64,000 bases of DNA, from positions 1-64,000 of the forward strand of contig JAETRQ010000011.1 in assembly GCA_021770095.1 (NCBI GenBank), written 5' to 3'. The translations under genes and the position numbers were made by a program. Shown here piece by piece: positions 3,952 through 24,486 of the stretch (its first letter is position 1; each line of letters opens with the position of its first letter). The DNA is from Eubacteriaceae bacterium (lineage in GTDB: Bacteria; Bacillota; Clostridia; Oscillospirales; Acutalibacteraceae). Under the pieces are notes generated by a model that did not search any database, had not been told where the DNA came from, and worked only from the letters and a program-made list of their open reading frames with translations.

Positions 3952-3996
3952 CGCGCCATTAGTGTAAGGACTTTTATGAAAGGATGTGAATTACAT

Positions 3997-4329
3997 ATGT
4001 CACGAAAAAAGAAAGTTACTCAAAATGAAGTGATTGAAGGTTTAAGGCACTTAGCCTTTGGAGATATACAGGATGCAGTTACACTTCTTTTTGAAACGGA
4101 TGAAAATATACTGAACGCACTGCCAAAACTTGATTTGTTCAATATAAGCGAGATTAAAACAGGCAAAGGCGGAGGTATGGAAATCAAATTTTTTGACAGG
4201 ATCAAGGCAATGGAAAAACTCAGAGATTTTATAAATGATGCTGAAGGCAAAACCGCAGTGTCGTTTTATGATGCACTGGAAAAGAGTGCAAGCAGTCTCA
4301 AAAATAACGGAGAGAACGGATATGACTAA
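3997..4329 (+). CDS. Phage terminase small subunit-like protein
   Basis: 110 residues from ATG 3997 (AGGATGTG 8 nt upstream; an in-frame ATG at 3976 with TAAGGA is the alternative). The stretch GGMEIKFFDRIKAMEKLRDF matches the C-terminal signature of many clostridial terminase small subunits (K-[IL]-x-D-[KR]-[LI]-K-A-[LM]). The small subunit recognises DNA for packaging. It is shorter than usual and a classical N-terminal helix-turn-helix is not obvious. It overlaps the large-subunit gene by 8 nt, the expected neighbour, which is the main support. Confidence 0.65.
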   Translation: MSRKKKVTQNEVIEGLRHLAFGDIQDAVTLLFETDENILNALPKLDLFNISEIKTGKGGGMEIKFFDRIKAMEKLRDFINDAEGKTAVSFYDALEKSASSLKNNGENGYD

Positions 4330-5581
4330 GTTTGTTCCGTTTTCTGCAAAACAACTTTCGGTTCTGACCTGGTGGTGTAAAAACAGCAGTCACCACAGCA
4401 AAAACGGAATTATCTGTGACGGCGCGGTCAGAAGCGGGAAAACATTGTGTATGAGTTTATCTTTTGTCTGCTGGGCGTTTTACAATTTCAGCAATACATC
4501 TTTTGCTGTGTGCGGAAAGACAATTGCTTCACTGAGACGGAATGTAATAACACCGCTGCTTCCTGTACTCAAAGATTTGGGATTTGTTTGTGACTTTAAA
4601 ATCAGCAGAAATTATCTGGAAATCAAAAAGGACAAAACAGTCAATCGTTTTTTCCTTTTCGGCGGCAAAGATGAATCCTCTGCGTCATTGATTCAGGGAA
4701 TGACTCTCGGCGGAGTTATGTTTGATGAAGCGGCACTTATGCCGCGTTCTTTTGTTGAACAGGCTCTTGCAAGATGCTCACTTGAGAATTCCAAATATTT
4801 TTTCAACTGTAATCCGGAACATCCTTATCACTGGTTTTATATTGAGTGGATACAAAAATGTGCAGAGAAAAATATCCTTTATCTTCATTTTACAATGGAG
4901 GATAATCCCGCTCTGTCACAGTCAGTGAAAAACAGATATAAAAGTCTTTACTCAGGTGCATTTTATGAGCGCTTTGTACAGGGCAGATGGGTTACGGCTG
5001 ACGGATTGGTTTATCCGATGTTTGCACACAAACGGCATATAAAAAAATATGACGGCAAGTTCAGTCAGTACTATTTGTCCTGTGATTACGGAACGGTCAA
5101 TCCATTTTCTCTTGGTTTATGGGGAAAGGGGAAAGACGGCTGGTATAGAATAGATGAATATTATCATTCAAGCCGTGATAAAGGTGTTCAGTTAACAGAT
5201 GAGGAATATTATAACGCCCTGGAAAAGTTGGCACAGGGAAAAAATATTCAGGCATTAATCATTGACCCGTCTGCAGCATCCTTTATTCAGACCGTAAAGA
5301 GACATGGGAAATACAGGGTAATCAAGGCAGACAATGACGTGTCAAAAGGAATTAACAGAGTTTGTCAGGCTTTGAAGAACGACGAGATATTCATTTATCC
5401 AAACTGCGCTGATATTATCCGTGAATTTTCAATTTACCGCTGGGATAACAGTATCAGAAAAGATGCACCGAAAAAAGAAAATGACCATGCAATGGATGAT
5501 ATGAGATATTTTGTGTCAACCGTTCTGAATAAGAACGAAAAGAATAATCCGTTTGTGTCCATTGCGATAGAAAGGAATTGA
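4322..5581 (+). CDS. Phage terminase large subunit (packaging ATPase/nuclease)
   Basis: 419 residues from ATG 4322 (GGAGAG upstream). Walker A is GAVRSGKT at residues 34-41, and Walker B with the catalytic Glu is VMFDEA (Asp135, Glu136). C-terminal acidic residues of the RNase H-like nuclease appear in SCDYGTVNP, ALIIDPSAA and DHAMDDMRY. Length and motifs are those of an intact PBSX/XtmB-type or Terminase_3/6-type large subunit, which pumps DNA into the prohead and cuts it. Starts 8 nt inside the small-subunit gene and is followed after 4 nt by the portal gene. No sign of decay. Confidence 0.95.
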   Translation: MTKFVPFSAKQLSVLTWWCKNSSHHSKNGIICDGAVRSGKTLCMSLSFVCWAFYNFSNTSFAVCGKTIASLRRNVITPLLPVLKDLGFVCDFKISRNYLEIKKDKTVNRFFLFGGKDESSASLIQGMTLGGVMFDEAALMPRSFVEQALARCSLENSKYFFNCNPEHPYHWFYIEWIQKCAEKNILYLHFTMEDNPALSQSVKNRYKSLYSGAFYERFVQGRWVTADGLVYPMFAHKRHIKKYDGKFSQYYLSCDYGTVNPFSLGLWGKGKDGWYRIDEYYHSSRDKGVQLTDEEYYNALEKLAQGKNIQALIIDPSAASFIQTVKRHGKYRVIKADNDVSKGINRVCQALKNDEIFIYPNCADIIREFSIYRWDNSIRKDAPKKENDHAMDDMRYFVSTVLNKNEKNNPFVSIAIERN

Positions 5582-5585
5582 GGCT

Positions 5586-6725
5586 TTGGGCTTATTTAAT
5601 TCAAGAAAAAAGAAAGGCAATACTGTATCTGCATCAGCGGTACAAACTTCATCAAGTGCAAAGCATCCTTATTATCAGTTATCATCATATATGCCTATGA
5701 ATAATCAGTCAAAGGTGTATGCCCATCTCAGGAGTGCGGTGCCGATTATTGATGCTGCAATTAATAAGATTGTCAGGCTGACCGAGGGGTTTCATTTTGA
5801 AACAGGGAATGAAAGCACAGACAAAATGATGAATGATTATTTTGAAAATATAAATGTCGGTGGTAATCAGAAGGGATTGTCTGCATTTATATCAAATTAT
5901 CTGAATCAGCTGCTGACTTTTGGTACGGCAATTGGTGAAATTGTTATGAGTGAAAGCGGGATATATGCACTGTATAACAGTGAACTTGCTGAAATTGAAC
6001 TGAAGAGGGCTGATAACGGAATTGATATTGAGTATTTTATTTCAGGTGAAAGGATAGGAAATCCGTCGCTGATATTATATTCGGTGTTAAATCCAAAACC
6101 GCGTGATTTGTGTGGTACAAGTATTCTGGAAGGATTGCCGTTTATAAGTGATATATTGATGAAGATATACAACACAATCGGCAACAACTGGGAACATGCG
6201 GGGAATGTGAGATATTCGGTTGTCTGCAAACCGTGTGATGAGGATACGGCTGATGATGCCCAGAACAGAGCACAGACAGTTGCACAGGCATGGAAAGACG
6301 CAATGGATAGTTCAGCAGTCAAAGATTTTGTTGCAGTGGGGGATGTCAGTGTTTCTGTTATCGGGGCAGATAACGTTTGTCTTAACAGTGAAATTCCTGT
6401 TAAACAATTGCTTGAGCAGATTGTTGCAAAAATGGGAATTCCTCCGTTTATGCTCGGGCTGAGTTGGTCATCGACAGAAAGGATGAGTACACAGCAATCA
6501 GATATACTTACTACCGAACTTGAAAGTTACAGAAGAATTCTGACTCCCGTAATATCAAAAATCGGAAATTTGTATCTTGCTTTAAAAGGATACGATACGG
6601 GTGTTTGTGTGGTATGGGATGATATTACACTGCAGGATGAATGTGACAGTGCAAAAGCGCGGCTTTATACGGCTCAGGCAGAAAAAATAGAAAAGGAGAA
6701 TGAACTTGACGCAAGGATATATTGA
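5586..6725 (+). CDS. Phage portal protein
   Basis: 379 residues, starting at TTG 5586 with AAGGA about 9 nt upstream. The pattern (SAVPIIDAAINKIVRLTEGF, a central NNWEHAGNVRYSVV, and IPPFMLGLSWSSTERMSTQQSDI near residue 290) is that of portal proteins of siphovirus/myovirus prophages. The portal dodecamer forms the DNA gate of the capsid and docks the terminase. Its position between terminase and protease is canonical. Slightly shorter than many portals (about 400-480), but the core elements are present. Confidence 0.88.
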   Translation: MGLFNSRKKKGNTVSASAVQTSSSAKHPYYQLSSYMPMNNQSKVYAHLRSAVPIIDAAINKIVRLTEGFHFETGNESTDKMMNDYFENINVGGNQKGLSAFISNYLNQLLTFGTAIGEIVMSESGIYALYNSELAEIELKRADNGIDIEYFISGERIGNPSLILYSVLNPKPRDLCGTSILEGLPFISDILMKIYNTIGNNWEHAGNVRYSVVCKPCDEDTADDAQNRAQTVAQAWKDAMDSSAVKDFVAVGDVSVSVIGADNVCLNSEIPVKQLLEQIVAKMGIPPFMLGLSWSSTERMSTQQSDILTTELESYRRILTPVISKIGNLYLALKGYDTGVCVVWDDITLQDECDSAKARLYTAQAEKIEKENELDARIY

Positions 6726-7671
6726 AAAAAGTTTTCAGCCAAACGAGGTTGATTTGCAGAAAATAAATCAATACACAAGAACGGCCTTTTCTGCTGACAG
6801 ACTTTATGTTTTCAGTGTGGTGCTGTGTGATAACGATATTGACAGGGATTATGAAAAATTTTCTGTTTCGGCACTCAATGAATTAAAAGAAAAGTTTGTC
6901 GGCAAAACAGGGATATTTGATCATTCAATGAAAGCACAGGACCAAAAGGCGAGAATATTTGATACTTGGGTGGAACATATTGAATCAAGGAAAACTGCTG
7001 ACGGTGAGGATTATTATTGTTTGAAAGCAAAAGCATATATGCTTAGAAATGAAGAAAACCAATTGCTTATTTCTGAGATTGATGCAGGGATAAAAAAGGA
7101 AGTTTCTGTATCATGTCAGGCACGCAAAAGCATTTGTTCCATTTGCAGCAATGATAAGCGCAGCGGATACTGTGAACACTTTAACGGAAAAGAATATAAC
7201 GGCAAAACTGCTTTTTCTGTTTTATCAGACATCAGTGATGCTTATGAGTTCAGTTTCGTTGCAGTTCCTGCGCAAAGAAATGCAGGTGTTACAAAATCAT
7301 TTGATTTGACAAAAGAGGATAAAAACAAAATGACAGAAATTATTGAAACATTAAAAAATTGCGACGGCAATATAACACTTACAAAGTCGCAGGCAATGCA
7401 TATCGCTGACAAGATGCAGTCCCTTGATGAGGATGCAAAACTCGGAAGAGAGTATAAAAAGAAGCTGACTGAAGAAGTCGTTTCTCTCTGTGCCATTGCA
7501 ATGCCGGATATGGATTTAAAAGTCTTTTCAGGTGTAACGCAGGTTATGACGACCAAGGAACTTATGGCGTTCAAAGATAGTTTTAAAAAAATGAATTTTT
7601 CAGCTGAACCCACATTGCAGCTTGCATCGGGTAAAGCAGAAAAACACCAAAACAATCAATTCAAATTATGA
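6706..7671 (+). CDS. Prohead protease/scaffold-like protein (XkdF-like)
   Basis: 321 residues if started at TTG 6706 (AGGAG 7 nt upstream; ATG 6700 has only 1 nt spacing). The first ~200 residues (VVLCDNDIDRDYEKFS, GIFDHSMKA, ISDAYEFSFVAVPAQRNAGV) resemble capsid maturation proteases fused to scaffold, as in PBSX XkdF. His in FDHS and Ser in EVSVSCQ are candidate catalytic residues. A zinc-knuckle-like C-x2-C-x8-C-x-H occurs near residue 150. The C-terminal third looks like a helical scaffold. Overlaps portal by 20 nt. Confidence 0.7.
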   Translation: MTQGYIEKSFQPNEVDLQKINQYTRTAFSADRLYVFSVVLCDNDIDRDYEKFSVSALNELKEKFVGKTGIFDHSMKAQDQKARIFDTWVEHIESRKTADGEDYYCLKAKAYMLRNEENQLLISEIDAGIKKEVSVSCQARKSICSICSNDKRSGYCEHFNGKEYNGKTAFSVLSDISDAYEFSFVAVPAQRNAGVTKSFDLTKEDKNKMTEIIETLKNCDGNITLTKSQAMHIADKMQSLDEDAKLGREYKKKLTEEVVSLCAIAMPDMDLKVFSGVTQVMTTKELMAFKDSFKKMNFSAEPTLQLASGKAEKHQNNQFKL

Positions 7672-7695
7672 TAATTAAATTTAGGAGGATGAATT

Positions 7696-8691
7696 ATGGC
7701 ATTTGATAATATTAAATTAGAAAAAGGACTTTATTCAACAGGAAAAACTTTTACACAGGCACTTGAGGAAATTGACCCGTCAGAAAATTACAGAGGCACT
7801 TCACTTGAAGGTCTTGATGCATACGAAAGACAGCTTAAAAGATTTGATATTAAGGTTTCGGGTTCGAATTCAGACCCGGTATCAAAATTCTTTGCTACAA
7901 CAGATTCAGCAGCACTTTTCCCCGAATATGTTTCAAGAGCAGTAAAACTCGGCATTACAGATTCAAACAAGGTGGATTCAATTGTTGCAACGACTACAGA
8001 AATTGACAGTATGGACTACCGTTCCATTTCTACATCAAACAATGTTGACGATTTTAATTTGGCAAATGTTAATGAAGGTGCTGCATTGCCTGAACTCAAT
8101 CTCAAACTAAAAAATAAACTTACAAAGTTGCAGAAACACGGCAAAATGCTTGTTGCATCATATGAGGCTATCAAGTTTCAAAAACTTGATTTGTTTACTA
8201 TCACACTCAAACAAATTGGTGAACATATTGCGAACAGTGAGTTCAATCAGGCTGTAAAATCAATTTTGGATAACAATGGTTCACTTATTTTTACGTCAAG
8301 TGCAAACCAATATACATATGACGATTTGGTTGAGGCGTGGACAGAGTTCTTCCCTCACAATATGACAACATTTATTACCGGCCGTATGGCTGTCAAAAAT
8401 CTTCTTACCATTCCTGAATTTATTGATGCGGCAGCAGGTATGAATTTCCATTCAACAGGTAATATTGGTACTCCGTTTGGTGCAGAAGTTTATCTGACCG
8501 ATGAGATTACGAATAATGATATTGTTGTTATGGATAAGAATTATGCAATTGAAAAAGTACAGGCAGGCGGTGTAATAACCGAATTTGACAAACTGATTGA
8601 CCGCCAGCTGGAAAGAGCAACGATTTCAACCATTACAGGATTTTCGCCGATTTATGACGATGCGGCAATGATTATTCAGTCAGCTAATTAA
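7696..8691 (+). CDS. Phage major capsid protein
   Basis: 331 residues after the strong ribosome-binding site TAGGAGGATG, the best in the operon, fitting a highly made protein. The sequence (SKFFATTDSAALFPEYVSRAVKLG, then SMDYRSIS, and HNMTTFITGRMAVKNLLTIPEF) has the layout of HK97-fold coat proteins of PBSX-like prophages, with an N-terminal arm, a P-domain helix and late beta-rich A-domain. Full length, no frameshift. It directly follows the protease/scaffold gene, as usual. Confidence 0.85.
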   Translation: MAFDNIKLEKGLYSTGKTFTQALEEIDPSENYRGTSLEGLDAYERQLKRFDIKVSGSNSDPVSKFFATTDSAALFPEYVSRAVKLGITDSNKVDSIVATTTEIDSMDYRSISTSNNVDDFNLANVNEGAALPELNLKLKNKLTKLQKHGKMLVASYEAIKFQKLDLFTITLKQIGEHIANSEFNQAVKSILDNNGSLIFTSSANQYTYDDLVEAWTEFFPHNMTTFITGRMAVKNLLTIPEFIDAAAGMNFHSTGNIGTPFGAEVYLTDEITNNDIVVMDKNYAIEKVQAGGVITEFDKLIDRQLERATISTITGFSPIYDDAAMIIQSAN

Positions 8692-8710
8692 GAAGGCAGT
8701 GTGAATTCCT

Positions 8711-9067
8711 ATGACAGATTTTGATTTGGTAAAGGAAGAAGTTATTAAAATTTCATCTCTCAGTGAAAATCAGATAGATAAGTATGACAATTTTATTTTG
8801 AGTTGTGTGTCTTGTATAGAACCGTTGCTTAAGGATAAAGAAAATGAAAATGATGCCCGTATTGTCCATTTTTGTGCTGTTAAAGTTTATTATCAAATCA
8901 TGCTGACGGAACAGAACAATGACGGGATAACATCATTTCAGGCAGGAGATGTTTCTTATACTGTGGACGCATCTGCTGCTGACAAAGTGAAGGTTTTGCT
9001 TGATATTGCAAGAGATGATTGCAAAGACTTGCTGCAAAACAGCGGTTTTGCATTTAAGGCGGTGTGA
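8711..9067 (+). CDS. Head-tail connector-like protein (gp6/YqbG type)
   Basis: 118 residues, mostly alpha-helical by composition, located just after the capsid gene. Size, position and the pattern DNFILSCVSCIEPLLKDKENENDARIVHFCAVKVYYQIML are like the small adaptor proteins that bind under the portal (HK97 gp6/SPP1 gp15 group, XkdH/YqbG position). Adaptors normally link head to tail, which is notable because the tail-tube genes are absent here. The assignment rests largely on gene order. Confidence 0.6.
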   Translation: MTDFDLVKEEVIKISSLSENQIDKYDNFILSCVSCIEPLLKDKENENDARIVHFCAVKVYYQIMLTEQNNDGITSFQAGDVSYTVDASAADKVKVLLDIARDDCKDLLQNSGFAFKAV

Positions 9068-9068
9068 T

Positions 9069-9428
9069 ATGAATAAAGCACACTTAATAAAAAAAGAACT
9101 GGAAAGGTCAGGCAGTTATCTGATACTTAAAGACGGAGATTGGCAGTCCGTTCCGTTTCGTGCATGTTTAACCCATTTATGGAGAAGAAAGACATATGCT
9201 TTTGAGGCAAAATTCACTGAAATAGGAAGATCTTTTCATGAGTATTATTTGTATGTCGGACCGTATGACCATAATATAAAATCATTGTCAGATAATGCAC
9301 TTGTTGTTATAGACGGAGAAGATTATGAATTCAAGTATACAGATGAAGTTCGGTATGCGGGAGAAGTAATTTATTATACAGGTGTACTCAGGAAAATAAA
9401 AGGTGATGAGAATTATGAAAATGGATGA
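9069..9428 (+). CDS. Phage minor structural protein, head-completion/connector position (XkdI-like position)
   Basis: 119 residues starting at ATG 9069, one base after the previous stop, with GGCGGTG upstream. Beta-rich sequence (TYAFEAKFTEIGRSFHEYYLYVGPYDHNIK). The place in the operon corresponds to the stopper/minor capsid gene of PBSX-like phages. Family membership cannot be proven by eye. Its last 14 nt overlap the following gene. Confidence 0.5.
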   Translation: MNKAHLIKKELERSGSYLILKDGDWQSVPFRACLTHLWRRKTYAFEAKFTEIGRSFHEYYLYVGPYDHNIKSLSDNALVVIDGEDYEFKYTDEVRYAGEVIYYTGVLRKIKGDENYENG

Positions 9429-9825
9429 TATTACGCTGAATATTAAAAAATTAATTAAAAGTGATGCATTTTTTGAAAATATAAATGTTATAAGTGCGTT
9501 TCCGGATAAAATGAAAAGTACACGCCTTAAACAGCCTGTTATTGCAATCGGTATTGATAATATTGAAATGGCTTCAGATCGCATTGATGAAAGCAGCAGG
9601 AGAGGGGACATTTGCGTTTTTGCAGATGTCTTTCTCCCCACACAATTTGATATTGGTATGATGGAAAAAATATTCTCAAAACTGTGCACCTGCTTTGATT
9701 CTTTCAATATTCTTTCAATAAAAACAGGCAGGAGCAGATTTGACAGTTATGCACAGGCGTATGTACTGGATACTGTATTTACATTTAATGACAATATCGA
9801 ATTTGGGAGTGAAAACGATGAATAA
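9415..9825 (+). CDS. Phage tail-completion-like protein (XkdJ-like position)
   Basis: 136 residues from ATG 9415 (AAAAGGTGATGA upstream). An alpha/beta pattern (NIKKLIKSDAFFENINVISAFP, then QPVIAIGIDNIEMASDRIDESSRRGDICVFADVFLP) is like the tail-terminator/tail-completion family that caps a tail tube. In related phages this gene stands immediately before the tail sheath gene. Here the next genes are a 29-codon frame and the LysM hub gene, so the cap protein persists although its tube is missing. Confidence 0.5.
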   Translation: MKMDDITLNIKKLIKSDAFFENINVISAFPDKMKSTRLKQPVIAIGIDNIEMASDRIDESSRRGDICVFADVFLPTQFDIGMMEKIFSKLCTCFDSFNILSIKTGRSRFDSYAQAYVLDTVFTFNDNIEFGSENDE

Positions 9826-9907
9826 TGATTTTGAAACGACAGAACAGATGAGTGAAATTATCAGGCTTGATCAAAAAAGATATGATAAGACCGCAGGGGA
9901 TGCGTAA
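9818..9907 (+). CDS. 29-residue small protein at the junction of head and baseplate modules
   Basis: ATG 9818 with GGGAGTG six bases upstream opens a 29-codon frame ending at TAA 9905-9907, one base before the next ATG at 9909. It overlaps the previous gene by 8 nt. The product is charged, soluble and resembles nothing known to me. It occupies exactly the place where sheath, tube, chaperone and tape-measure genes stand in related phages, so it is either a deletion-joint remnant or a coupling cistron. Good ribosome-binding site and perfect operon spacing argue that it is translated. Confidence 0.5.
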   Translation: MNNDFETTEQMSEIIRLDQKRYDKTAGDA

Positions 9908-9908
9908 A

Positions 9909-10415
9909 ATGAAAATGAAATTCGGTACTTTTGAATTCCCTGTTAATCCGAAAAACCTGAAAGTTTCATCATCAACCAATTGCAGAGAAAAAGCAATTTT
10001 CGGCAAAAATACAGTGGTTGAAAATGTGTCGGTTAATCCGACTGTTATCAGCGGAAAAGGGGAATTGGCAGATAAAAACGGAGAAGGTACCTGCTCGTAT
10101 CTGATGCATATTCTCAAAACAAAAAAATCATATTGGCTGTTTGCACCGGATATGGTGCCGATTAAAGCATATCTGACGGATTTTGCTTATGAACAGAGCA
10201 GTTTGAGGAATTCATATTTGTATACATTCAAATTTGTTGAGGATTGCACGGATAAGTCCGAGATAATTAAAATACCTTATACAATTGCCCGAAACGGTGA
10301 AAATGCTTTTGACATTGCATACCGCTGCGGCGTCAGCGTTGATGATATTATGATGAAAAATGATATTGCAACACCGTTTGATATTCGTGAAGAGGACAAG
10401 GTGATGCTTGAATGA
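9909..10415 (+). CDS. LysM-containing baseplate/tail hub protein (XkdP-like)
   Basis: 168 residues from ATG 9909 (GGGG 9 nt upstream). The C-terminal ~45 residues (NAFDIAYRCGVSVDDIMMKNDI...DIREEDKVMLE) form a LysM-like domain as in XkdP of PBSX, and the N-terminal part (MKMKFGTFEFPVNPKNLKVS) matches the beta-barrel of such proteins. In contractile phages this protein binds the bottom of the tube or tape measure. Its stop overlaps the ATG of the next gene (ATGA). Confidence 0.75.
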   Translation: MKMKFGTFEFPVNPKNLKVSSSTNCREKAIFGKNTVVENVSVNPTVISGKGELADKNGEGTCSYLMHILKTKKSYWLFAPDMVPIKAYLTDFAYEQSSLRNSYLYTFKFVEDCTDKSEIIKIPYTIARNGENAFDIAYRCGVSVDDIMMKNDIATPFDIREEDKVMLE

Positions 10416-11359
10416 TTATAAAAGTGATTACAATTTTGGGTGAAGAAATACAACTGAATCATATTTTTGAATTCTGTTTTACACAAACAGTAGGTGTTGC
10501 GTGTGATTCTCTTTCCGTATACTTCAAAAATGAATTTCCGATTGATGAAATTGCTTTTGTTAAAGCATATGAAAAAGACAGAATCATTTTTAACGGTTTT
10601 TGTGACAATCAGAGGACGACTGAAAATCAAGATGGGTTTGAAATGTTTATTTATGCCCGCTCTTCTGCCTGCCTTTTGGTTGACAATGAGGCACAGCCAT
10701 TTACATATAATTGCCCGAGTGCAAATCAACTGTATTTTAATTATGCAAAAGATTTTGGCTTTGAATCTGCATTGCCTGAAATATATAGCAATGATAAATA
10801 TGAGGTGTTAAAAGGAACGACTTGTTACGGTGCAATTCATCAGTTTGTTTATCTCAAAAGCGGAAAATATGTTTATGTTACACCTGACAATAAACTCAGT
10901 GTATATGAAAAAAGCAGCAATATAAGAGACTTTCATAAATATAATATCATCTCATTTTCATCAGTTGTAAACAGGAGTGAACCAATATCGCAGATAAATT
11001 TCAAGCGTTCTGTCGGAGAAAGCGGTTACCGCCTTCATACAAAATCACAAATCAGCGATGAAATCGGTATAAAGCGGAATCAATATGTAAATTTATCTGC
11101 ACTTGCGCAATGGCAAAGGGAATATGTTATCTTGCAGAAATTGAAATCTTCTTATGAAGATTATAAAGTGTTGGAAATACTGGTTGCAGGATATGTAGAT
11201 GAGGAGTTATTCAGGTCATTTGATTTTGTTCACCGCGGAGTAAGGTATGATGATTATGTTCTTATGGAAAAGAAGTATACTTTTGATGAAAGAGGAGAGA
11301 GAACAAAACTTGTGATGAAAAAATCAGTTGAAGTAAAGGAGATTACGTATGTGGATTAG
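10412..11359 (+). CDS. Baseplate hub protein (XkdQ/gpD-like)
   Basis: 315 residues, ATG in an ATGA overlap with the LysM gene. The alternating beta pattern, the stretch YEVLKGTTCYGAIHQFVYLKSGKYVYVTPDNKLSVYE and the C-terminal YDDYVLMEKKYTFDERGERTKLVM are typical of gp27/gpD-type tail hub proteins of PBSX-like elements, which form the trimeric socket for the spike. Full length. The overlapping next gene encodes the spike, as expected. Confidence 0.72.
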   Translation: MIIKVITILGEEIQLNHIFEFCFTQTVGVACDSLSVYFKNEFPIDEIAFVKAYEKDRIIFNGFCDNQRTTENQDGFEMFIYARSSACLLVDNEAQPFTYNCPSANQLYFNYAKDFGFESALPEIYSNDKYEVLKGTTCYGAIHQFVYLKSGKYVYVTPDNKLSVYEKSSNIRDFHKYNIISFSSVVNRSEPISQINFKRSVGESGYRLHTKSQISDEIGIKRNQYVNLSALAQWQREYVILQKLKSSYEDYKVLEILVAGYVDEELFRSFDFVHRGVRYDDYVLMEKKYTFDERGERTKLVMKKSVEVKEITYVD

Positions 11360-11714
11360 CAAACAAACAGTGAAATCAACTGAATTGCCGTTAATCCAGA
11401 CAGGTAAGGTTACGATGTCAGGTCAAAACGGAGTGGAAGCCGTATCGACCAGTCCGCAGAGAAATATAGAGATGTATTCACCGTATGGTTATTACTATTC
11501 AATGCCGACAGGGAATAATATGCTGATTGCAAGGTGTGACGGTAATTCGGTTTCAATGGGCGTTCTGATGGAAGATGAAAGCCTGAAAACTGGAGAGATT
11601 AAGATTGTCTCACAGTCAGGCGGGTATATTTATCTGAAAAATGACGGCAGTGTTGTAATCAACGGATTGATTATTGACAGCAAAGGAGCAGTGAGAAATG
11701 GCAGTAAAGAATGA
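11349..11714 (+). CDS. Baseplate spike protein (gpV/XkdR-like)
   Basis: 121 residues, ATG 11349 overlapping the hub gene by 11 nt, with AAAGGAG upstream. An OB-like N-terminal half is followed by the C-terminal QSGGYIYLKNDGSVVINGLIIDSKG, a short beta-helix pattern as in phage P2 gpV and related membrane-piercing spikes. Compact but complete-looking. Overlaps the next gene by 17 nt. Confidence 0.7.
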   Translation: MWISKQTVKSTELPLIQTGKVTMSGQNGVEAVSTSPQRNIEMYSPYGYYYSMPTGNNMLIARCDGNSVSMGVLMEDESLKTGEIKIVSQSGGYIYLKNDGSVVINGLIIDSKGAVRNGSKE

Positions 11715-11970
11715 ATTTATTGAGTCGATTCTTTGTGACTGTGTAACAGAATTGAATTGTCCTCTGGGTGCATTTTATCCTGACAAGAATTACGGCAGTA
11801 AAATAAAGAATTCAATTATGCTCAATAACGAAAAACTTCTTGCCTATGCAAGACAGGCTGTTGCCATGGTTGACGGAGTATATATCAAATCAGTTGAAAC
11901 AAACACAAAAAATGCTTTGTTTGAAATTATGATTAATGATGAAAAAAGGCAGGTGTGTATTAAGATATGA
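11698..11970 (+). CDS. Baseplate wedge protein (gp25/gpW-like, XkdS)
   Basis: 90 residues, placed between spike and gpJ as in P2 and PBSX. It shares the size and general pattern of the gp25-like family (a helix, then LLAYARQAVAMVDGVYIKSVET, then beta strands), although the EPR signature of gp25 sheath-initiating proteins is not seen. In contractile machines gp25 starts sheath assembly; no sheath gene exists here. Confidence 0.6.
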   Translation: MAVKNEFIESILCDCVTELNCPLGAFYPDKNYGSKIKNSIMLNNEKLLAYARQAVAMVDGVYIKSVETNTKNALFEIMINDEKRQVCIKI

Positions 11971-13040
11971 ATAAAACCTATGATGATATTTTAATTGAAA
12001 TGAAAAAAGAATATTTTGAAGTCAGCGGACAGGTGCTTGATGATTCATCCAATGTATTTAAACGCCTTCAGGCAGTGGCGAGTGAACTTTTTGCCCTTTC
12101 AACATATGGGGATTACATATTTAAACAAGCATTTGTTCAAACGGCAACAGGTCAATACCTTGACAGACACGGTCAGATAAGAGGATGTACACGAAAAACG
12201 CCTTCAGAATCAACAGGTATACTCGAATTCACGGTTGCCGAACCTGTTGCAGATGATATTATTATTCCTAAGGGGACGGTGTGTTCTGTAAACGGTAAGC
12301 CTTTTTTGCAGTATGCAACAGACGGTGAAGCAGTTATAAAGGCCGGTTCGCTCAGTGTTTCCGTCAGTGCCACGTCACTCGGATATGGCGAAAAATATAA
12401 TGTTTTGCCCAATGAAATAACAGTTATGGTTAATGCGCCTGTCGGGATAAGCAGTGTGACAAATACGAATGCATTTATCAGCGGATGCGATGAAGAAAGT
12501 GATTTGGCATACCGAAACAGGATTATATGCGTTTATTCTTCTGCGCCGAATGGTGTTGGAACCAAAGCCATTGAAAATGTTGTTATGGGATATGATTGTG
12601 TTAAGGACTGCCATGTTTCATACTCGGGTGAACACGAGGGAATTGAGATTGTTGCAATTGCCAAGACAGGCTCATTTTCAAAAGAACAGGAAAAAATGAT
12701 TGTTGAATCTATTGCACTGCGTGAACTCTTGGGTGTGGATATTATATTCAGTCAGGCGATGCCGCAAAACTATTCTATTGTTGCAGAGATAAAAGTACGG
12801 GGCGGTTTTGATAAAAAAGAGGTTGAGGCTGAAGTTAAAGATAAAATCAAAACGATCTCGTCTGCACTTCGTATCGGTGAAGAATTGCAGCTGAACAGAA
12901 TTTCAAAACAACTGATGAATATGGATGCATTGAGTGAATATAACCTTTATTCAAAAGAAGCATATGCAGAGGTTATTGTGTGTGACAGTAACAAGTATCT
13001 TCATCTCAATGATTTGGTGGTGAACTGTTTTGAAGAATAG
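11967..13040 (+). CDS. Baseplate J-like protein (XkdT)
   Basis: 357 residues overlapping gp25 by 4 nt. N-terminal QAFVQTATGQYLDRHGQIRGCTRK and the central NAFISGCDEESDLAYRNRIICVYSSAPNGVG are hallmark sequences of the baseplate J family (PF04865), which builds the baseplate wedges. Length is normal and the frame is intact. The next gene is gpI, the usual partner. Confidence 0.92.
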   Translation: MNKTYDDILIEMKKEYFEVSGQVLDDSSNVFKRLQAVASELFALSTYGDYIFKQAFVQTATGQYLDRHGQIRGCTRKTPSESTGILEFTVAEPVADDIIIPKGTVCSVNGKPFLQYATDGEAVIKAGSLSVSVSATSLGYGEKYNVLPNEITVMVNAPVGISSVTNTNAFISGCDEESDLAYRNRIICVYSSAPNGVGTKAIENVVMGYDCVKDCHVSYSGEHEGIEIVAIAKTGSFSKEQEKMIVESIALRELLGVDIIFSQAMPQNYSIVAEIKVRGGFDKKEVEAEVKDKIKTISSALRIGEELQLNRISKQLMNMDALSEYNLYSKEAYAEVIVCDSNKYLHLNDLVVNCFEE

Positions 13041-13590
13041 TTATATCAGGTTGTCACAATTGTGGAATCATTTGAGTTTGCCACCTGAAGATAATCTGCC
13101 GGACAAAGCAGAAATAATGGCATATTGCAAAGGCATTAAAATAGTAAGGGAATTTTTTGATGAAATTTTTTTGCAGGCTTTTGTTGAAACTTCAAGCGGT
13201 GCAGCACTGTCATATTATTGTCAAATGCTGGGGATTGACGGCAATCTTGCACCTGATGAAAAGAAGAGACTGATTAAAGCGAAACTTAACCGTAAATTCG
13301 GTGATTATGAAAGTTCGGAGTTTGAAAAGGTTGTTTCGGATATTGATCCGGATTTGTCTGTGGTCATTAATGATTTTGTTGGATTTACTACTATTTACGG
13401 CACCTGCAGGGGTAAGTACGATATATTTCCGCGGTTGACAGATGCGATTGATAATTATATTCCGCCGTGTTCCGATATTTCTTTTTCAGGGGATGGTTTT
13501 GATTTTGATTATTGGGACAATACGCCGTATTTGTTTGAAAATTTTGATAATTTAAAATTATCGTTCGATTTTATTGAAACACTAAATTAA
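13030..13590 (+). CDS. Tail protein I-like (XkdU, DUF2313)
   Basis: 186 residues starting at TTG 13030, 11 nt inside gpJ, with GGTGGTG upstream. The sequence (LPPEDNLPDKAEIMAYCKGIKIVREFFDEIFLQAFVETSSG, DEKKRLIKAKLNRKFG) fits the XkdU/DUF2313 family that follows gpJ in PBSX-like baseplates. C-terminus is rich in Asp, Phe and Tyr. Confidence 0.75.
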   Translation: MKNSYIRLSQLWNHLSLPPEDNLPDKAEIMAYCKGIKIVREFFDEIFLQAFVETSSGAALSYYCQMLGIDGNLAPDEKKRLIKAKLNRKFGDYESSEFEKVVSDIDPDLSVVINDFVGFTTIYGTCRGKYDIFPRLTDAIDNYIPPCSDISFSGDGFDFDYWDNTPYLFENFDNLKLSFDFIETLN

Positions 13591-13600
13591 AGGAGAAATT

Positions 13601-14080
13601 ATGAGCAGTACAAATAAAACTACGCATTTGAAGCTGAACAGCTGGATTGGTTCAGACAAACCGAAAAGGGTGGATTTTAATTATGATAACGAAGTGATTG
13701 ATAAAACAATCCATGACCATATTACGGATACGGTTGTTCATATTAATGACAGTGAAAGAGATAAATGGAATAATTATATGTATGTCGGAATGTATTTTGG
13801 TACAGGGGATTCTTCAAGAGTTATTAAAACAGATTGCCCGTTCGATGTGAATATGGGTATTGTGTTTGCGGTCAATAAACCTATATCGGTGATGGATTTT
13901 TCTGAAAACCATAAAACAAATTATTGTGCCTTTTTGGGGACGTATGGAGAAAGTTCAGGTGTGAAACTTCTTGATGATTTAAGGTCTTTCAGAGTGAATC
14001 AGAATTATGCAATACTCGGCAGAGAATATATAAATCTGAATGAAATCGGTGTTTCTTACATATATATGATGTTCAGATAA
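13601..14080 (+). CDS. Tail-fibre or appendage protein
   Basis: 159 residues after AAAGGAGAAATT. The N-terminus (KTTHLKLNSWIGSDKPKRVDFNYDNEVIDKTIHDHI) is a typical start of clostridial phage tail-fibre proteins that dock on gpI; the C-terminal ~90 residues are an uncharacterised, probably beta-rich tip. Very short for a receptor-binding fibre and without chaperone gene. Last gene of the operon; a terminator follows. Confidence 0.65.
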   Translation: MSSTNKTTHLKLNSWIGSDKPKRVDFNYDNEVIDKTIHDHITDTVVHINDSERDKWNNYMYVGMYFGTGDSSRVIKTDCPFDVNMGIVFAVNKPISVMDFSENHKTNYCAFLGTYGESSGVKLLDDLRSFRVNQNYAILGREYINLNEIGVSYIYMMFR

Positions 14081-24134: not shown

Positions 24135-24486
24135 GGGGATGAAAGGATTTCGACAGGGTTGTTGAACCTTGGTCAGCGAGTAGTGGAGTTGCACCACTTT
24201 AAAAGTAACAACTTAAAATTAACTGACAAAAATAATTCAGTTGCTCTTGCTGCGTAATTAGCAGCTTGCGTTCTCCCGCAGATTGCCGCGCCTGCGGACA
24301 GAGCGTCGACTTAGCGGCGAACATGAATGATTGATTTTCTCGGCTTTCATCAGGTAATAGAGAATACCGTAACTTACAGGCTGTTTGCCGCCGGTAAGTG
24401 AAGGGAATTTTAAAAGACAAACTACACTCGTAGAACCCTTGGCAAGATGATTTTGGACGCGAGTTCGACTCTCGCCATCTCCACCA
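24135..24486 (+). ncRNA. ssrA: Transfer-messenger RNA
   Basis: About 352 nt. The 5' end GGGGATGAAAGGATTTCGAC and the 3' end GAGTTCGACTCTCGCCATCTCCACCA-type T arm/acceptor close a seven-pair acceptor stem (GGGGATG with CATCTCC, one G-U). CCA is encoded. The tag reading frame ends ...NNSVALAA at the TAA 24255-24257, the usual ALAA degron. It lies directly after smpB, the common Clostridia arrangement. Confidence 0.96.

Follow-up and report, generated by a model that had tools for sequence, protein, structure and literature searches.

A phage-derived head and baseplate operon with a vestigial tape measure in a gut-type Oscillospirales bacterium, a probable domesticated particle resembling gene transfer agents

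Results

The window, the whole 64,000-nucleotide stretch of DNA analysed here, comes from a Eubacteriaceae bacterium (Oscillospirales, Acutalibacteraceae) and carries on its forward strand 16 undamaged frames at positions 3976..14080, running from the terminase to a fibre gene; all of these overlapping, intact frames were located as the initial annotation had placed them. The packaging and head genes comprise TerS, the small terminase subunit, here missing the N-terminal portion that would hold the DNA-binding HTH (3976..4329, starting at 3976 or 3997), TerL, the large subunit (4235..5581, probable start 4322; phrog_2, E 2.5e-47), the portal protein (5586..6725; phrog_30703, E 5.9e-123; alignment A2), a head maturation protease (6700..7671; phrog_16951, E 3.4e-91) and the major capsid protein (7696..8691; phrog_3922, E 2.5e-72; Phage_capsid_4, E 1.8e-12). 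Three connectors follow: connector 1, a head-tail adaptor (8711..9067; phrog_541, E 3.1e-4); connector 2, which would occupy the stopper position (9000..9428, probable start 9069) and whose profile hit the protein encoded at that place in many relatives; and connector 3, the putative tail terminator (9403..9825). A 29-residue frame (9818..9907), SEIIRLDQKRYD, precedes the gene of a LysM protein (9852..10415, probable start 9900 or 9909), and the remaining genes encode a baseplate hub of the Mu gp44 type (10412..11359; phrog_177, E 1.3e-4), a spike (11349..11714; phrog_25991, E 2.3e-9), a gp25-like baseplate protein (11698..11970; phrog_16571, E 4.4e-4), a gpJ-like wedge (11967..13040; phrog_6, E 6.5e-56), a gpI-like wedge of the Mu gp48 type (13030..13590) and a short fibre protein (13601..14080; alignment A7). 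The protease, spike, gp25-like and fibre proteins were named by position and after the initial annotation, and the families matched by the first three have no assigned function. In three loci from outside the order, relatives of the protease-position protein sit two genes 5' of the capsid gene.

Library matches were weaker for TerS, connector 1 and the hub than for TerL, the portal, the capsid and the gpJ-like wedge, and connectors 2 and 3 and the LysM protein gave no library match as single sequences. In profile searches against the PDB, the hub (profile A5) matched 3d37 (E 8.3e-13) and Mu gp44 (1wru, E 1.2e-7); the capsid had no match, the sole match of the terminator was a non-phage protein (E 0.83), and the best match of the fibre reached E 0.063. 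Connector 3 is predicted to have the tail terminator fold, its AF2 model (pLDDT 88) giving Foldseek matches that include the diffocin collar and lambda gpU. The AF2 model of the LysM protein resembles hub-proximal ring proteins in the baseplates of phiCD508, a contractile injection system and diffocin, with weak fold matches to particle proteins of gene transfer agents (GTAs), and its relative in locus L115 carries LysM together with DNA_circ_N; from the model and this relative it was assigned as a putative tube-initiator ring. The gpI-like wedge was also assigned through L115, whose protein matches Phage_Mu_Gp48 at E 3.1e-5, under the cut-off of that family.

Seven of the eight genes neighbouring the operon matched ordinary families and one had no match; an M23 peptidase gene lies upstream. 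No integrase or replication gene was matched among these eight, and no phage- or integrase-like gene was seen among the 28 commonest flank gene groups, which were judged by eye rather than by profile scan. As in a GTA, the phage-derived structural and packaging frames stand without integration or replication genes. The presence of terminase, portal and capsid separates the locus from extracellular contractile injection systems, which have a tail without a head. No lysis gene was recognised in the operon, which counts against a GTA-like reading.

In TerL, the Walker A core, Walker B and nuclease acids were invariant in all 21 aligned sequences. TerS of the window matched Terminase_2 only at positions 58-128 of 141, and five full-length TerS relatives matched from positions 1-4 to 127-132. 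By sequence, the terminase motor is intact and the small subunit lacks its DNA-recognising part, and this combination points to non-specific packaging of cellular DNA. The HTH gave no match at E<0.01 in 22 rows of the window genus (one of which, L049, has little upstream DNA), and it was present in 33 of the 92 rows examined, 7 of these 33 having seeded the profile; the head-only genus g38 is among those that keep it. Non-specific packaging is therefore not claimed for the whole lineage.

The capsid gene was single-copy, intact and free of stops in 32 of the 36 same-genus genomes. Across the order, 71 of 394 genomes had it, 69 of them with one match, and in family f26 it was present in 71 of 157. 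As two of the four same-genus genomes without a capsid match reach 97% completeness, loss of the element does occur; another capsid-less genome, G020 (68% complete), still has the wedge gene. On a tree of the head genes, the six host families required five label changes, which is the minimum, against a mean of 30.0 after shuffling (as low in 0 of 200 shufflings), and all 13 genera represented by at least two rows formed single clusters. This tree was computed without L057 (on the same contig as L121), L059, L069, L070, L161 and L166-L168, and without L033, which had too few residues. In genome G028 the capsid is distant (53%) and coaX is near (79%), which suggests some exchange; apart from this one discordant genome, the pattern is that of vertical inheritance with selection, as in GTAs.

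Moreover, NG86 dN/dS was 0.02-0.42 in every estimable pair (12 pairs), with many dS values of about 1 or above, some pairs not computable and the window itself too distant from its nearest relative. These ratios are not near 1, the value that the initial annotation had named as speaking against its proposal. In the window clade, the baseplate, hub and fibre genes are present with dN/dS well below 1. On this genomic evidence, the operon is evidently kept by selection.

Capsid-forming PICIs are mobile satellites that borrow tails from helper phages, and head and packaging genes without tube or sheath would be expected of such an element as well. A satellite of this type is nevertheless a very improbable identity for the operon, which encodes a baseplate of its own, follows its hosts on the tree and shows neither the integrase and regulators nor the mobility of such elements, the flank groups having been viewed by eye and the eight flanking genes having yielded no integrase. 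In addition, a capsid match at E 1e-3 was limited to 6 phage records out of 50,697, each an entry without annotation from a human faecal sample. A scan of IMG/VR gave two loci (close relatives only).

The gap in which tail genes would be expected measures 83 nt, from the terminator stop at 9825 to the LysM ATG at 9909, exactly as first reported, and contains most of the 29-residue frame. The sheath family was found neither in G000 nor in 35 of the 36 same-genus genomes, with a profile that matches 3 of 14 controls, and the tube profile matched 0 of 60 genomes in a set that contained no positive control. Sheath, tube and tape measure together mark a PBSX/P2-like contractile prophage or tailocin, and the locus does not carry this set. 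The initial annotation had described all three as missing, which holds for the sheath, the tube and a full-length tape measure but overlooked a remnant of the last. The 29-residue frame is kept in 23 named loci of the window clade, these being the 23 of 24 that reach the gap, and its pooled pN/pS over 24 window-clade sequences was 0.29. In 58 of 75 loci, a tape-measure motif, defined post hoc after the sequences had been seen, stands immediately 5' of the LysM gene, versus 0 of 2803 random places. By these comparisons, the frame is a stub left from the C-terminus of the tape measure.

A split system, with sheath, tube or tape measure encoded elsewhere in the genome, has a parallel in the second operon of the Faecalibacterium agents (FpGTA); in one strain, about 125 kb separate the two operons (PMC12946183). 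For the present operon this arrangement is improbable, given the sheath search and the tube search above, the latter in a set with no positive control, and the stub that stands where the longer gene was. A tube hidden among the genes of the window was rejected as well, the same connector and baseplate families adjoining a separate tube gene in relatives; the structure prediction that had been proposed as a check for such a protein returned the terminator and LysM ring folds and not a tube.

The missing tail genes, typical as they are of PBSX/P2-like phages, could be those of a decaying prophage or of a tail lost through recent deletion or misassembly. Such an origin is scarcely credible here. 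The layout of the gap is shared by the 23 named window-clade loci that reach it, which come from different assemblies, so recent deletion or misassembly was rejected and the very recent deletion offered at first as an alternative falls with it; the frames of window-clade loci are intact except at contig ends and in TerL of L043, and the dN/dS range is that given above. Loci that retain all of sheath, tube and tape measure are found among the relatives, as the recent-deletion alternative had anticipated, but they belong to other genera and families, which indicates that the loss is old and occurred more than once.

Across the relatives, the tape measure is 73-289 aa in the 17 loci with sheath and tube, 28-55 aa in the 10 loci with tube only and 21-53 aa in the 31 loci without a detected tube; most relatives in family f14 retain a short tape measure along with sheath and tube, and the cultured Hydrogenoanaerobacterium saccharovorans An564 (L057/L121) has the form with sheath and tube. 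The terminator is fused to the tube in five loci, to the LysM protein in three and to the fibre in four (L055, L056, L103 and L107). On the tree the sheath changed at least five times, the tube at least eight times and the gpJ-like wedge at least six times while the head genes stayed, in state counts that omit the truncated loci L034, L112, L119, L147, L151 and L157. The tube count also omits L111 and L130, which were initially taken to lack a tube but whose terminator is joined to a sequence weakly matching it, together with L148 and L154 (unclear extensions), and it includes as tube-less L150, whose region is poorly resolved; the wedge count additionally omits L050 and L066-L068.

This turnover of tail parts over constant head genes also suits a particle kept for a role other than transfer, such as a capsid for DNA storage, protection or release, or a surface-binding or killing device that does not need a tail. 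Some lineages hold head and connectors alone, or the terminator-fibre fusion, and for the Faecalibacterium particles delivery is likewise not shown in the excerpted text of PMC12946183. Against such a role, the baseplate, hub and fibre of the window clade, at low dN/dS, fit contact with a target envelope, and the HTH-less TerS fits general DNA packaging; we regard the non-transfer role as unlikely, yet as a serious competitor. A route of delivery is hard to see for the head-only relatives, an observation that counts against the GTA-like reading.

Discussion

In the present study, the operon of the window is interpreted as probably encoding a GTA-like particle that was domesticated long ago and is passed on vertically. 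Its presence in 32 of 36 same-genus genomes, the host-following tree, the low dN/dS, the intact TerL and the HTH-less TerS support the earlier proposal of a domesticated particle under selection. In such a particle, the head would package cellular DNA without sequence preference, and the tail terminator would dock straight onto the tube-initiator (LysM) ring and hub, which would reduce the tail to zero length. The channel of the hub may be plugged by the 29-residue peptide, as it once was by the tip of the tape measure, and attachment to a cell surface would fall to the wedge and fibre proteins.

A broader account, toward which the comparisons incline us only slightly, would place these loci in one order-wide particle lineage with stepwise, repeated loss of the tail, reaching in the window genus a zero-length tail with the 29-residue plug. 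As a GTA family separate from FpGTA, this lineage would also supply the gene cluster so far missing for part of the GTA-like packaging already observed in gut Oscillospiraceae and Ruminococcaceae. If the GTA-like reading is true, the operon joins the few GTA-like elements from outside the Alphaproteobacteria, and it becomes a candidate driver of gene exchange within a large order of gut bacteria. Moreover, the relatives would then form a graded series of natural tail deletions, which starts from a contractile tail complete with sheath, tube and tape measure and ends with no tail. Such a series would allow direct tests of which of these parts are required by a DNA-packing particle, what a lone tape measure C-terminus does and how a baseplate is sealed by a terminator. 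The puzzle of the missing tail would find its explanation in an old, selected design and not in damage.

Several known systems share features with the operon. PBSX of Bacillus subtilis, diffocins and other contractile devices have a sheath, a tube and a long tape measure. The terminator and LysM protein match diffocin and related folds; in contrast to those devices, sheath, tube and long tape measure are gone here and the head genes are kept. Three prophage-like loci outside the order (L181-L183) have a related capsid and protease-position protein, but their other genes were without match, save a very weak portal match in L181, and L182 and L183 encode proteins of 1761 and 1781 residues at what is, by size and place, the tape measure position. 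RcGTA of Rhodobacter has a siphovirus-like tail, is vertically inherited and lacks integration and replication genes. The present operon resembles it as a vertically inherited, selected, phage-derived cluster without integration or replication genes, and differs from it in the siphovirus-like tail of RcGTA and in the unrelated host phylum; the LysM protein has the weak fold matches to GTA particle proteins given above.

A marker of the Faecalibacterium type was found in 0 of 157 genomes in one draw of family f26 and in 3 of 394 in the order, and neither the portal nor TerL had a match in the three genomes concerned, of genus g122, whose identity as Faecalibacterium is presumptive. The gut GTAs reported in 2026 in Nat Commun (PMC12946183), FpGTA I and II of Faecalibacterium, apparently come from another locus; the capsid and portal of FpGTA I have the accessions RCH50849.1 and RCH50851.1. 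Judged by title and the start of the abstract, that paper was the sole relevant one in the literature retrieved, which also included virome studies; it mentions alphaproteobacterial GTAs and describes FpGTA particles that measure about 40 nm, show no identifiable tail and hold about 9 kb of DNA, a precedent for the GTA-like reading. FpGTA, as described there, occurs in gut Clostridia and has a head and packaging operon that lacks replication genes and a TerS with no obvious DNA-binding domain (PMC12946183); the present operon shares these traits, known here from the genes alone. They differ in that FpGTA carries its baseplate and lysis genes in a second operon (PMC12946183), whereas here the baseplate is encoded in the same operon as the head.

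Results

All 16 frames that the initial annotation had placed at 3976-14080 on the + strand of the window were present. A library search of the window proteins gave strong profile matches for TerL, portal, capsid and wedge J and weaker ones for TerS, the first connector and the hub, the latter being of the Mu gp44 type in a profile search (PDB 3d37, E 8e-13); the names protease, spike, gp25 and fibre are based on gene position and the initial annotation. The predicted structure of the LysM protein (mean pLDDT 87) resembled baseplate proteins of phiCD508, contractile injection systems and diffocin, which we take to be hub-proximal, tube-initiating rings, and that of the third connector (pLDDT 88) resembled tail terminators, the diffocin collar and lambda gpU. 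The element is flanked upstream by genes for an MFS transporter, an M23 peptidase (1821-2573), one protein without family assignment and a zinc-ribbon protein, and downstream by coaX and genes for a DUF1015 protein and two peptidases. The M23 group was found upstream in 7 window-clade rows, the window counted in, and the window peptidase could be a mere neighbour or a cell-wall enzyme serving release. An ordinary tmRNA gene lies at 24135-24486 (tag DKNNSVALAA).

The sheath was earlier claimed to be missing, in agreement with our finding that its family, PF04984, was detected neither in the window's genome nor in 35 of the 36 same-genus genomes; the sole genome with this family, G011, carries it on contigs other than that of its element. 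The tube profile matched 0 of 60 genomes, a set that contained no positive control. In the proposed check of gene order in related genomes, the 24 named window-clade loci (L031-L053, L058) all keep an identical order as far as their contigs extend. A very recent deletion had been offered as an alternative source of the gap between connectors and LysM gene. This layout is, however, shared by all 23 window-clade loci reaching the gap (95-130 nt between the terminator and LysM profile matches), and the capsid gene is single-copy and stop-free in 32 of the 36 same-genus genomes (identity 50-68%), so the gap does not stem from recent deletion. The element's wedge J was detected in 33/36. The window-clade genes each cover at least 80% of their profile in one frame, barring contig ends (L033, L034, L038, L039) and the TerL of locus L043, whose split into two profile matches reads as a frameshift, genomic or from assembly. 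Per-gene dN/dS had also been proposed as a check, values near 1 speaking against selection; in 12 close-relative pairs of several tail types every estimable NG86 value lay at 0.02-0.42 and YN00 reached up to 0.40, with many dS near or above 1, some values not computable, and the window excluded as too distant from its nearest relative (75% identical).

The 29-residue frame (9818-9907) occupies the position of the tape measure gene in tailed relatives, and its end, SEIIRLDQKRYD, is similar to tape measure ends such as LDRLVRRDARRFDGG in locus L115. A strict motif, defined post hoc on sequences already seen, directly preceded LysM in 58 of 75 loci, and none of 2803 positions drawn at random from these loci carried it; it was missing from 17 loci that have the LysM gene. 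Predicted tape measure lengths were 73-289 residues in the 17 loci that have both sheath and tube, 28-55 in the 10 that have a tube alone and 21-53 in the 31 where no tube was detected, a group that takes in one mispicked reading and no fewer than 3 loci of uncertain tube state. Short forms thus accompany sheath loss, the tube-only and tube-less ranges overlapping. Pooled over 24 window-clade sequences, pN/pS in the motif segment was 0.29. The likeliest reading of the frame is a remnant of the tape measure protein that is still translated and under selection.

Among relatives, most loci of family f14 and some of family f26 have a sheath, a tube and a short tape measure gene, frequently together with a chaperone, in the interval from the connectors to LysM. 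A sheath was also found in f2 and f7 loci ended by contig edges; in family f1, L125 is the only sheath-bearing locus, the rest having tube alone or neither. Some loci have just head and connectors, or a terminator-fibre fusion. The head-gene tree requires at least 5 changes for the sheath (present in 20/90 rows), at least 8 for the tube (36/86) and at least 6 for wedge J (61/86), counts in which gain and loss are indistinguishable. We infer loss, given that five of the six families include sheath-bearing loci and that the genes are arranged as in contractile phages. Single-frame fusions joined terminator and tube in 5 loci (weakly in two, E 0.01 and 0.023), terminator and LysM initiator in 3 (L160 weak), and terminator and fibre in 4; the second connector was fused to the tube in 1 locus. 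With the terminator joined to a tube subunit, there would be room for only one tube ring. The window particle would need a contact between terminator and LysM protein, which the terminator-LysM fusions of relatives would represent.

For packaging, TerL was invariant at its Walker A core, its Walker B motif and its nuclease acids in 21/21 sequences across the order. Five full-length TerS relatives matched Terminase_2 from position 1-4 through 127-132, and the match in the window TerS was restricted to 58-128 of 141. The absent N-terminal part, presumably an HTH, was not detected upstream in 22/22 window-genus rows, L049 having little upstream DNA; of the 92 rows overall, 33 have it, among them 7 that seeded the profile. 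Head-only relatives (genus g38) retain the HTH, so its absence is not coupled to tail loss. Within the fetched stretch, genus g33 (L146, L152, L154) showed no TerS or TerL upstream of the portal; its packaging genes may be located elsewhere or replaced.

In a survey of 394 genomes from the order, the capsid profile matched 71 (42/168 genera), 69 of these with a single match. Among the genomes listed in this survey, 35/43 of family f1 carry the element, and in family f26 the capsid was found in 71/157. Of the f26 matches listed, only G490:C16:13670-14629 has an internal stop (one TAG), possibly a decaying copy. A class-wide draw of 391 genomes gave 11 matches, 8 within the same order; the remaining three are prophage-like loci sharing little beyond capsid and protease-position gene, in two of which the tape measure position is occupied by proteins of 1761 and 1781 residues. 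A protease-capsid gap of about 370-640 nt occurs in many relatives (e.g. L053, 9616-10001) and in several encloses a gene of about 111-132 residues that the prophage-like loci from outside the order also have; the gap was not seen in the window or its nearest relatives.

On the head-gene tree (TerL, portal, protease and capsid; 96 rows, 1442 columns, quick method, LG+G4, composition warnings on many rows), the six host families needed 5 changes, the minimum possible; shuffled labels needed a mean of 30.0 and 0/200 were as low. Furthermore, 13/13 genera with at least two rows formed single clusters. By these results the element is order-wide and vertically inherited, though perhaps not purely so. 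A purely vertical history is disfavoured because genome G028 (locus L030) combines a distant capsid (53%) with a near coaX (79%), about 65 kb apart, and because coaX adjoins the element in only part of the genus. In G028 the element was possibly replaced through within-genus exchange.

Discussion

As judged from its genes, the window element is best read, with somewhat better than even confidence, as a domesticated DNA-packing particle of GTA-like type whose tail would have zero length. The 46.7-kb record of L065 (MT835508.1, 1-40990), labelled Bacteriophage sp. from human faeces in Mexico, resembles bacterial chromosome (rpoA, secY, rnf genes) surrounding a head-only copy of the element. It may derive from the DNase-treated VLP study PMC8361208, whose passages leave the record unnamed. 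Finding chromosomal DNA among particles would be consistent with GTA packaging or else with contamination.

In PMC12946183, GTA-like packaging is described in gut Ruminococcaceae, Oscillospiraceae and Christensenellaceae, and the FpGTA I/II operons of Faecalibacterium are reported to yield 40-nm heads with about 9 kb DNA, no identifiable tails and no demonstrated delivery. A Faecalibacterium-type marker protein matched only genus g122 of family f26 (3/394 order genomes; 0/157 in another draw). The portal and TerL of the element's family were not found in the three genomes of g122, a putative Faecalibacterium, so the element, compared through these genomes, is probably distinct from FpGTA. The two systems are alike in TerS, the FpGTA protein being described without an obvious DNA-binding domain (PMC12946183), much as the window TerS is without its N-terminal part.
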